Of a DNA stretch of 64,000 nucleotides, positions 28,963-35,331 are shown piece by piece (positions within the stretch are counted from its first letter, which is position 1; each line of letters starts with the position of its first letter). Below the pieces are notes generated by a model, which was given only the letters and a program-made list of their open reading frames with translations, made no database searches and was not told the origin of the DNA. The position numbers were made by a program, and so were the translations under genes. This stretch comes from Phaeobacter sp. 11ANDIMAR09 (GTDB lineage Bacteria; Pseudomonadota; Alphaproteobacteria; Rhodobacterales; Rhodobacteraceae): the NCBI RefSeq assembly GCF_001294455.1, contig NZ_LIKT01000013.1, forward strand, positions 1-64,000, in the 5' to 3' direction.

Positions 28963-33335
<4,373 letters not shown>

Positions 33336-33364
33336 GCCAATTTTTCCTGAATTTCCTCTCGCAA

Positions 33365-33400
33365 GTTCTGAAAAAGTTCGCAAATGTTCTCAAAAAGTTC
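33365..33400 (+). promoter_or_regulatory. Two tandem SOS boxes (GTTC-N7-GTTC)
   Basis: GTTCTGAAAAAGTTC (33365-33379) and GTTCTCAAAAAGTTC (33386-33400) each match the alphaproteobacterial LexA box GTTC-N7-GTTC exactly and are 21 bp apart, two helical turns. A degenerate third, GAAC-N7-CAAC (reverse strand GTTG-N7-GTTC), lies at 33424-33438. They stand 30 bp past recG and about 105-140 bp before the 40-residue gene at 33506. Confidence 0.82.
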
Positions 33401-33505
33401 TTTACAGGGCTGGCGCAAAATGAGAACAAAAGAGCAACAAGAGGCCGACGGAGAGCGGCGAGGTTAAAGCCTGAACCCTGACAGAGAGTAGTGGAGACAA
33501 ATCTG

Positions 33506-33628
33506 ATGATGACCCAGTTGAAGACAACCCTACACAATGCCCAACCGACCCTTCTTCAGGATGCGCTTGGCGCCGCTGCGCTGGCCGTCATGCTGGTTGT
33601 TGCGCTTCATCTGCCGGGGTTCCTGTAA
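33506..33628 (+). CDS. SOS-controlled small membrane protein, 40 residues
   Basis: Starts ATG (33506, a second ATG follows at 33509) with GGAG 9 bases upstream. N-terminal half polar (MMTQLKTTLHNAQPTLLQD), C-terminal half one hydrophobic helix (about 19-40, ALGAAALAVMLVVALHLPGF). It follows two exact SOS boxes and a strong terminator comes 190 bp later, so it looks like a stand-alone LexA-regulated gene. By size, membrane helix and control it resembles SidA of Caulobacter (29 residues, stops division by binding FtsW/FtsN) or E. coli TisB-type toxins, though I see no sequence match. Function is inferred, not shown. Confidence 0.65.
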   Translation: MMTQLKTTLHNAQPTLLQDALGAAALAVMLVVALHLPGFL

Positions 33629-33819
33629 TCGCGCAACCGTGATCCCACGATCTCTTTTTTCAACCCCTTGAATACCTATTTCTAGTTTCTGCCTGCTGTC
33701 TTTATGTCAGATGCGCTGACATCCACCCCGGTGTCATTGGATCCCCGCCTGACTTTATCCACCCGGTTGCGCCTATCAACCGGGATGCGCTCTGATCCCC
33801 GCATAAAGACGCATTTCCT

Positions 33820-33857
33820 GCCGCCACCATCTGCCCGGATGTGTGGCGGCTTTTTTT
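33820..33857 (+). terminator. Rho-independent terminator; preceded by a second hairpin
   Basis: GCCGCCAC (33820-33827) / GTGGCGGC (33843-33850) followed by seven T. Upstream, CCCGGTTG-CGCCTAT-CAACCGGG (33762-33784) forms another 8-bp stem. The transcript from the SOS promoter would carry a long structured 3' part (33629-33857), or a separate small RNA ends here. Confidence 0.75.
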
Positions 33858-33867
33858 GTGCCACAGC

Positions 33868-35331
33868 CTAGGAGGTGATCCCCATGCGGACACCGCCCCA
33901 ATGGCGTGCCCCAACAAAGACCGGAGCCGACAGGTCCTTCATCATCACAAATTTGCCGCCGCCCATGTCCCGGCGGTAAACCTGCATCAGGAAGGGTTCG
34001 GAATTGCGACCCGCCTTGAGCCCCACCCGATCATCAAAGATCCGCCGATTTCGACAATTGGCGGTGTTCCACTCAGGATCACTGCCCTGCGGGTGGGAGA
34101 ATTTTTTGTTATGGGTCGGCAAATAGCCATTGGTGTCGATCGCTGCACAAAACACCACACGCGGGTCAAAATCGAGGGCTGCCTCCAAAATCGGGGGCAA
34201 CGTGGCATCTGTGAGGGACAGGAAGGAGGTGGTGTATTGCTCGGGGTTGCTGCCCGGGATCAGTTTGTAATTCTTGTCAAAAAGAGCGCTGGAGGAGATT
34301 TTTCCAGCCTCCAGAGCTCTTTCAAAAATGGTTCCAACCTTTTGGCTCAGCTCGGTGACATAGGAAATCAGCTTTTTATCCGTGGATTGCCCGCCAAGGG
34401 CAACGGTCCCCTGCACCAATTGTTCCGAAGAGGAAATCAGATTCTCAACCCGCGTATGGGTGTCGTGAATGCCTGTAGTGGTCTGCTCGACAGATTTTCC
34501 GATGCGGTTGATATTGGGGGCAAAGCTGTTCACCGCCTTTTTGACCACCGCCGCCTTGTCGAGGATGCGGGCGGTCTGGGCGTTTACCTCGGTTGCCTTT
34601 TCTTCAATACTCACCAGTGAACTATCCGTTTCCCGGGCCTGGCCCAGGATTTTTTCGGCAGATTGTGAAATGTCGACGGTTTCATCGTGAAGCAGAGTGA
34701 CCCATTTCGACAGGTTTTCGATATTCATGCCAATTTCCTGCGCAGCACTTTGGGTGCGTTTTGAAAGGTCATTGATTGCTTCGGCCACCACGGCAAAACC
34801 GCGCCCAGCGTCTCCGGCCCGGCTGGCCTCGATCTTGGCATTGATGGCCAAGATATTTACCTGGGCGGCAATATTGGTGATCATTTCGTTGTTTTTGCGA
34901 ACGGCTTCAACTGTCCCGCCGATTTGATCGGTGCGTTCTTCCAGATCGTTGACCCATTCAGCAACGGCCTGGCTGCGTCCGCTGTTGTCGCGGACAAATT
35001 TGACCGAGGTCTGGACCGATTTCAGTGTCTCCTCGGTGGTTACCGATACCGTCTGAATGGTGTCCAGAACTTGCCCATTAGAGGTGACTACCTGATCTGC
35101 CTGGCGGGTGAGATCCCTGAGGGCAGAGAGCTGACCCTGAGATTGTTGATCCATCTCGTCCAAAAAGCCCGCAATATCGACAATCTCATATCCCAGTTGC
35201 GAGGAGAGCTGGGTCAGATGGTTGAGTTGCAGGTTCTGGGCTGCGGTCTCTTGCGAGAGCGCGGTTTCATTGGCGATCATGGCTGCTGGATGTGTCGCTG
35301 CCGCTGCCGTGGACTGGGTGTGTGACTGCAT
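33868..35331 (-). CDS. Soluble methyl-accepting chemotaxis protein with C-terminal sensor part
   Basis: 487 residues. No signal peptide or membrane helix, so cytoplasmic or membrane-associated through partners. The signalling domain lies in the first half (about 30-250), with the strongly conserved hairpin tip [20 protein letters not shown] and [15 protein letters not shown]. The C-terminal part (about 355-487), with [16 protein letters not shown] and [14 protein letters not shown], looks like a Cache-type sensing fold. This is the reverse of the usual sensor-first order. Start chosen at 35331 (MQSHTQS). A role in motility or another Che-type pathway is likely. Confidence 0.88.

Follow-up and report, generated by a model that had tools for sequence, protein, structure and literature searches.

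A putative SOS transcript of Rhodobacteraceae joining a forty-residue membrane protein to a conserved structured 3' RNA

SOS division brakes vary by lineage, and the closest described systems use small membrane proteins, small RNAs, or both. TisB/IstR is an SOS type I toxin-antitoxin system in which a small SOS-type membrane peptide is accompanied by RNA features. In Caulobacter crescentus, the SOS-induced division inhibitor SidA is a 29-residue protein of the inner membrane that acts on FtsW (PMC4211646). In Klebsiella pneumoniae, the small RNA DinR is reported to be cut from the 3' end of the LexA-controlled dinI mRNA and to repress ftsZ; it overlaps the end of the dinI coding sequence, and its ftsZ-pairing stretch is specific to Klebsiella (PMC10907235). 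Among the Rhodobacteraceae, UdsA-H, UpsM and CcsR of Rhodobacter sphaeroides are described as UTR-derived sRNAs, and RNase E-matured 3'UTR sRNAs exist in the family (PMC8625941), while StsR is given as 72 nt long (PMC8307010). By term counts, recG, LexA and SOS have no occurrence in the main text of PMC8625941, and recG is absent from the main text of a study of D. shibae that reports LexA sites predicted in silico (PMC6473078). Literature listings limited to open-licence papers gave no SOS-controlled division brake for Rhodobacteraceae.

Here we analyse a locus next to recG in a 64,000-nucleotide stretch of DNA, referred to as the window. Like SidA, its product is a very small, predicted inner-membrane protein of an alphaproteobacterium with SOS-type control; unlike SidA with its 29 residues it has 40, and the two are likened by description, not by sequence. 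We know of no conserved RNA on the sidA transcript. The locus differs from DinR in carrying a multi-hairpin fold across many genera of a family, next to a different protein and with ftsZ pairing unsupported. It shares with TisB/IstR a small SOS-type membrane peptide with RNA features, but here the gene is widespread and syntenic, the helix is free of basic and almost free of acidic residues, and an antisense RNA, for which no specific search was made, was not seen. Among these systems SidA offers the closest model for the protein and DinR for the RNA. Like the 3'UTR-derived sRNAs known from the same family in R. sphaeroides, the RNA lies in a 3'UTR, and its conserved structure on the mRNA strand ends in an intrinsic terminator; unlike the 72-nt StsR, it is about 170 nt. 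As far as open-licence literature listings show, the combined protein and RNA unit is previously undescribed.

Operator and probable promoter behind recG

The features upstream of the coding frame are as follows.

31221..33335, + strand: recG, an open reading frame; the upstream neighbour, of which the position alone is used
33365..33379, + strand: box 1, an exact GTTC-N7-GTTC from the pattern scan, GTTCTGAAAAAGTTC
33386..33400, + strand: box 2, an exact GTTC-N7-GTTC, GTTCTCAAAAAGTTC; operator core, 74 of 75 loci having an exact box
33401..33406, + strand: TTTACA, the probable -35 element, abutting box 2; TTTAC is kept at 91-100% per position in 74 loci; putative promoter role
33421..33429, + strand: TGAGAACAA, the probable extended -10 element (TGnGAACAA), 17-bp spacer after the -35, overlapping the inverted near-box; putative role
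33424..33438, - strand: box 3, the inverted near-box, GAACAAAAGAGCAAC, GTTG-N7-GTTC when read on the minus strand; one mismatch, nearly fixed
33493..33496, + strand: GGAG, ribosome-binding site, 9 nt before the ATG

The original prediction had placed two exact GTTC-N7-GTTC boxes 21 bp apart, a degenerate third box and a well-placed GGAG in front of the frame. All of these are present: the exact pair at 33365-33379 and 33386-33400, the third box as a reverse-strand near-box with one mismatch (33424-33438), and the GGAG at 33493-33496, 9 nt before the start codon. Boxes 1 and 2 are the only exact copies in the 64 kb, and the first starts 29 bp past recG. Their number in the window is not beyond chance (2 against 1.48 expected, with two or more in 43 of 100 shuffles), and the whole-genome count of 103 lies below the 126 of the reversed control. 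Because the box count alone is no proof, the case rests on position and conservation.

To assess conservation we used 75 Rhodobacteraceae genomes chosen by the protein alone, comprising 29 from the first search, 26 further ones from the profile listing and 20 weaker rows. The set excludes L029, where the match lies inside a long response-regulator frame, and L038, which is the same genome as L013; as strong protein matches, the 75 genomes undersample diverged members. A frame could be set in all 75 loci, and an exact box lies within 330 nt upstream of it in 74, so the expected conservation of frame and box in relatives was borne out, but that of the tandem arrangement was not: two exact forward boxes occur in just 4 loci, all of the window's genus. 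The tandem exact pair is thus local, and what is general is a rigid operator in which GTTC half-sites are combined with a -35-like element and an inverted near-box. Boxes 2 and 3 occur together in 69 of the 75 loci, and the second half-site of box 1 (GTTC, 33376-33379) is retained across 74 loci at frequencies of 0.96 for G, 0.97 and 0.96 for the two T, and 0.99 for C. The operator consensus of these 74 loci, which excludes L028 as it is without an exact forward box, reads GTTCnCaAATGTTCTcAaAAAGTTCTTTACa, followed after some 11 variable bases by AAaTGAGAACAAAggggCAACA, and in 70 of them TTTAC and GAACA are separated by 18 nt. Between -35 and +20 relative to the start codon, 58 of the 75 loci have a GGAG, where shuffles give 18.8. 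We read the layout as GTTC-N6-GTTC-N7-GTTC running up to a putative -35 TTTACA, with the near-box over a putative extended -10 element 17 bp on; a repressor bound there would block RNA polymerase.

The pattern GTTC-N7-GTTCTTTAC was found in 272 of 395 family genomes, some of these matches lying elsewhere in the genome at places that were left unchecked. Its reversed control was found in about 30 of the 395 (hand count of the listing), and a version with an N6 spacer in 2 of 395, a slightly unequal comparison since that pattern also fixed one A.

We consider it likely that LexA controls this operator. GTTC-N7-GTTC is the reported alphaproteobacterial LexA motif (PMC8565304), and in 12 family genomes the exact form stands at 12 of 12 lexA and 11 of 12 recA promoters. 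In the benchmark of further genes, which left out L230, L243 and the second pieces of split genes, 10 of 11 uvrA loci carry an exact box. We had also taken comM as an expected LexA target, and it failed as a benchmark with an exact box in 0 of 11 loci; either it is no target here or its box is inexact. Matches to uvrA fall in two pieces in G020 and contain internal stops in G024, where the comM match is also in two pieces.

One position sets the operator apart. Here 73 of 74 loci have A as the base preceding the second GTTC, whereas 35 lexA, recA and uvrA sites have T (30) or C (5), and T is also found there at four further repair-type genes of the window's genome. As the A is absent from the benchmark sites, the operator is not a textbook LexA box; the A may serve an A-tract ahead of the -35, or it may signal another regulator. 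Such a regulator would read the GTTC direct repeats and the unit would not be an SOS gene, which would also fit the extra rigid elements (a third forward half-site at N6 and the inverted near-box) that were not noticed at recA, lexA and uvrA promoters, these having been scanned for exact boxes only. Against this reading, the N7 spacing matters (272 genomes versus 2 with N6 and about 30 reversed), box 3, read on its own strand, retains the T before its perfect half while its other half is mismatched, and the half-site context TGTTCTCA is also found at uvrA in two genomes. We know of no other regulator that uses a GTTC direct-repeat motif, and we consider control outside the SOS response unlikely. 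The prediction of a roseobacter SOS effector therefore stands in part: frame and operator are conserved family-wide, as is the place after recG in the loci examined, while the A before the second GTTC leaves LexA short of proof.

Further exact boxes in the window's genome lie 18-43 nt before genes for tag, radA/sms, a PA0069-type radical-SAM protein and a Y-family polymerase (L271, L273, L274, L278). The tag match is under the NCBIfam cut-off and far over that of Pfam. These four are likely SOS genes, judged by their boxes. Two related short frames (..LIETLWSI.V.FVDLG..; L276 and L277) also lie beside exact boxes in this genome, and are perhaps mobile-element genes under SOS control.

A forty-residue protein kept next to recG

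33506..33628, + strand: open reading frame for a 40-residue single-span membrane protein, N-terminus inside by charge

The predicted 40-residue frame with one membrane helix (33506-33628) is a real gene under purifying selection in the genus. Its pN/pS there is 0.16, whereas the other two frames give 1.15 and 5.2, and differences between genus members fall on the three codon positions as 441/103/1138. Of 153 loci, 120 have a frame of exactly 40 codons; every start is ATG, partly by construction because ATG was preferred over GTG and TTG. Within the 75 proteins, D19 and G22 are each kept in 73. Residues 1-18 hold 2.2 K/R per protein, and from residue 20 onward there is no K/R and 0.03 D/E per protein. 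This confinement of K/R to residues 1-18 argues for a topology with the N-terminus inside and the C-terminus outside. AlphaFold predicts helices at 2-11 and 13-39 (mean pLDDT 86, pTM 0.46), and the helical moment over residues 21-38 is 0.21. We thus describe the product as a predicted N-in single-span helix. Searches with four of the proteins found no match in Pfam or NCBIfam, and searches with two found none in PHROGs or PADLOC. Phage records held no match for the small protein, and the PDB no credible one (best E 0.37).

The protein is confined to the family as far as we can see, and widespread within it. All 12 genus genomes searched contain it (E<=3.3e-13), and at a threshold of E<=10 the search matched 33 of 60 genomes overall, with its weakest matches arising by chance within long frames. 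A protein profile matches 373 of 395 Rhodobacteraceae genomes at E<=1, and 345 at E<=1e-4 by a hand count of the listing. A search of 387 genomes sampled from across the Alphaproteobacteria gave good matches (E<=2.1e-13) in six from the window's family; six other genomes have weak partial matches (E 0.001-0.0095) in frames of 183-720 codons, and no match outside the family is convincing.

Synteny is similarly uniform in the loci examined. recG lies upstream in 74 of the 75 protein-selected loci. We also scanned named genomes for a 22-nt operator core, which gave at least 118 stretches, and examined the 80 that were listed. In all 80 the core sits at this place, and the frame lies downstream in 78 and recG upstream in 78, the exceptions running off the locus ends.

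Twenty-two of the 395 family genomes are without a protein match at E<=1 (for example G025, G034 and G063). The operator pattern is present in G034, at an unchecked place, and in G087, where the protein match has an E of 0.25; in some non-matching genomes the protein may have diverged rather than been lost. At one locus of the window's own genus (L010, G001:C54) RecG matches in three frames, while the small protein is 83% identical. The low RecG identity of 61% at this locus arises because recG looks frame-shifted there, which looks like either an assembly error or real damage.

A structured RNA between stop codon and terminator

33686..33693, + strand: C-rich single-stranded leader, TTTCTGCC, from folds and word counts
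33688..33820, + strand: structured RNA domain in the 3'UTR, matched by covariance model R1 and supported by covariation
33694..33707 with 33801..33813, and 33708..33716 with 33787..33794, + strand: closing stem, with a C-rich unpaired bulge between its two parts
33717..33736, + strand: hairpin A; loop CACCCC in the window, CUGUCC in most aligned loci
33738..33761, + strand: hairpin B, the weakest helix; loop CCCCGCCTGACTTT in the window, often CUGCCUGUCC elsewhere
33762..33784, + strand: hairpin C; loop CGCCTAT in the window, often UGCCUC elsewhere
33820..33857, + strand: intrinsic terminator, a 13-bp GC stem followed by seven T

A terminator after the frame had been predicted, and one is present; it lies about 190 nt further on (33820-33857), with folded RNA between. 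The whole stretch from stop codon to terminator (33629-33857) is a conserved structured RNA with C-rich loops, and few stretches in the genus are as well conserved as the terminator. Within the first 200 nt past the stop codon, CTGCCTG is present in 60 of 75 loci, where shuffles give 2.0. Folded singly, 14 loci show a common plan: an unpaired UUUCUGCC leader comes first, then a long closing stem interrupted by a C-rich bulge, hairpins whose loops are C-rich, and a terminator hairpin with a U run. An alignment of 71 diverse loci by sequence only recovered the closing stem in part and the terminator, and this partial recovery called for a structure-guided model.

We built the covariance model R1 from 13 sequences, none of them of the window's genus by their labels. 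In the window it matches 33688-33820 at 50.3 bits (E 2.4e-10), and the next match there scores 10 bits. It matches 60 of the 75 protein-selected loci at E<=1, one row being a chance match, and 50 of the 65 that were not used in its building. In the R1-aligned set 91.6% of cells pair, versus 35-42% with the partners slid; all 29 pairs changed on both sides, with 301 double-change cells versus 71 in shuffles. Because this alignment was fitted to the model, the slid and shuffled controls outweigh the raw percentages. Hairpin B is the least certain element, at 77.8% paired. A model-free MAFFT alignment of 12 genus sequences gave the closing stem, hairpin C and the terminator, with compensated changes at 15 of 42 pairs; hairpins A and B were not recovered in this fold. 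Together, these data show by covariation that the 3' RNA has a branched fold.

On the named loci, R1 matches 40 of 80 at E<=0.1, 3 of those having been used in its building. A second model, R2, built from the 75-locus set, matches 55 of the 80 at the same threshold, with covariation at 28 of 29 pairs and 91.5% paired; because genera of the first set recur among the named genomes in part, the two sets are not fully independent. At E<=1, R2 also matches 8 of the 15 loci missed by R1, versus one weak match in 58 control loci (lexA, recA, uvrA, comM, ftsZ). Since R1 misses 15 of 75 loci (E<=1) and R2 misses 25 of 80 named ones (E<=0.1), the fold is a feature of many genera, not demonstrated in every one.

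Of 116 aligned matches, 115 lie within 150 nt 3' of the frame on the same strand, and the remaining one is the chance row (alignment A4 holds one such row, L203, 1979-2064). The median gap from stop codon to RNA is 10 nt in the first set and 7 nt in the named set. In 24 whole genomes the RNA model gave at most one match each, at the locus in 10 of 12 genus genomes with 2 missed; elsewhere in the 24 it gave two weak matches (E 0.18 and 0.85). Rfam gave nothing over its gathering score, either for the window at 33300-33900 (best 15.8 bits against a cut-off of 43) or for 8 relatives (0 matches). Across 61 rows, CUGCC recurs in the leader of 52, UGUCC in loop A of 41, GCCUG in loop B of 43 and GCCUC in loop C of 23.

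Proposed roles of the two products

We propose that the locus forms one SOS transcription unit of Rhodobacteraceae. LexA would bind the tandem GTTC half-sites upstream of the -35 and the inverted near-box over the -10 and hold the unit off, and RecA-driven cleavage of LexA upon DNA damage would turn it on. The mRNA would be about 420 nt long, with a probable start near 33436 and its end at 33857. The 5' part of the transcript would be translated into a 40-residue inner-membrane protein, with a short amphipathic N-terminal helix inside and one membrane helix that begins with the conserved D-x-x-G. This helix most likely docks on a late divisome protein of the FtsW/FtsI/FtsN kind, which would delay septation and so block division in the manner of SidA. 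The 3' part, roughly from stop codon to terminator, would be a folded RNA that is probably freed by RNase cleavage, probably regulatory through its repeated C-rich single-stranded motifs, and might act in trans. We regard a dual LexA-controlled SOS transcript of this kind, giving a SidA-like membrane effector or division brake and a 3'UTR-derived RNA, as plausible, though somewhat short of probable. That the locus is a bifunctional part of the core genome, whose single LexA-controlled transcript carries divisome-directed membrane micro-proteins of a new family together with a multi-hairpin regulatory RNA that has C-rich loops and is both new and deeply conserved, is a possibility that we hold tentatively.

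The original prediction had left open whether the protein is a division inhibitor or a toxin, and we favour the inhibitor, because the gene is widespread at one place and the helix has a conserved D..G start. Small size, a single span, wide presence in the family and the specific conservation of the helix speak for a protein partner in the membrane. A type-I-like SOS toxin of the TisB kind, whose peptide would depolarise the membrane and slow growth while RNA elements restrain its translation, would also be small, with one hydrophobic helix, a multi-box operator and structured RNA on the same transcript. Type I toxins are expected to be scattered in their spread, however, and at E<=1e-4 this protein has matches in 345 of the 395 genomes of the family and, in the loci examined, lies next to recG (74 of 75 loci, and 78 of 80 with 2 cut). 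TisB carries charged residues along its helix, whereas here there is no K/R and 0.03 D/E per protein past residue 20. The 3' RNA gave no consistent sign of pairing with its leader beyond chance, the real duplex energy falling below the mean of the shuffles in 27 of 68 cases, and no conserved antisense element was noticed, albeit without a dedicated antisense search. We consider a toxin an unlikely account of the protein. The same leader energies, which do not beat shuffles, bear on a purely cis-acting RNA that would stabilise the small-protein mRNA or control its translation. Consistent with such a role, 115 of 116 matches lie just past the frame on the same strand, and no second copy was seen in 12 genus genomes in a prefiltered search that missed even this copy in 2 of the 12. 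Two words complementary to the loops are enriched around the start codon of the 75 loci (GACAG 23 versus 7.4 in shuffles, GAGGC 14 versus 5.4), but longer ones are not enriched or are missing (GGACAG 1 versus 2.0, GGCAG 0 versus 4.8, GGGAC 0 versus 4.7). Duplex energies thus lend no support to the RNA as a regulator of its own leader, single words are mixed, and the elaborate conserved loops seem beyond the needs of a stabiliser; we find action in cis only rather doubtful.

Alternatively, the RNA could be the main product and the frame mainly its carrier, with the CUGCC/CUGUCC motifs of an sRNA blocking the ribosome-binding sites of several mRNAs. The strong covariation, the recurrent C-rich loops, the terminator with its U run, the wide presence in the family and the DinR precedent would all suit such an RNA. 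The frame is under purifying selection and its length is kept, which argues that it is not a mere carrier, and no target was found in our pairing tests. The ftsZ start region was tried as a target and gained no support: in 1 of 14 genomes (the L009 RNA) the pairing beats 60 of 60 shuffles, three more genomes stand at 4, 4 and 6 of 60, and ten are not special; in most, the tested segment had its centre at an in-frame ATG that lies a little inside the likely start. A locus whose main product is the RNA seems improbable to us.

The locus offers one testable candidate for an SOS division brake in Rhodobacteraceae, a mostly marine family that includes Rhodobacter relatives and the roseobacters. It adds a protein unmatched in Pfam, NCBIfam, PHROGs and PADLOC and an RNA unmatched in Rfam. 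If our proposal is correct, division would be braked at the level of both protein and RNA from one promoter, and the RNA would be, to our knowledge, the first lineage-wide structured RNA known to be SOS-made. The 3' RNA may be half of the function.

Some leaders carry a further motif. Of the 75 leaders, 19 have TTAAC in the last 75 nt before the start codon, and 13 have T[CT]AA..TTAAC, a CtrA-like arrangement, in the last 120 nt (for example L035, L039 and L042). This raises the possibility of a cell-cycle input on the same promoter as the SOS-type operator.
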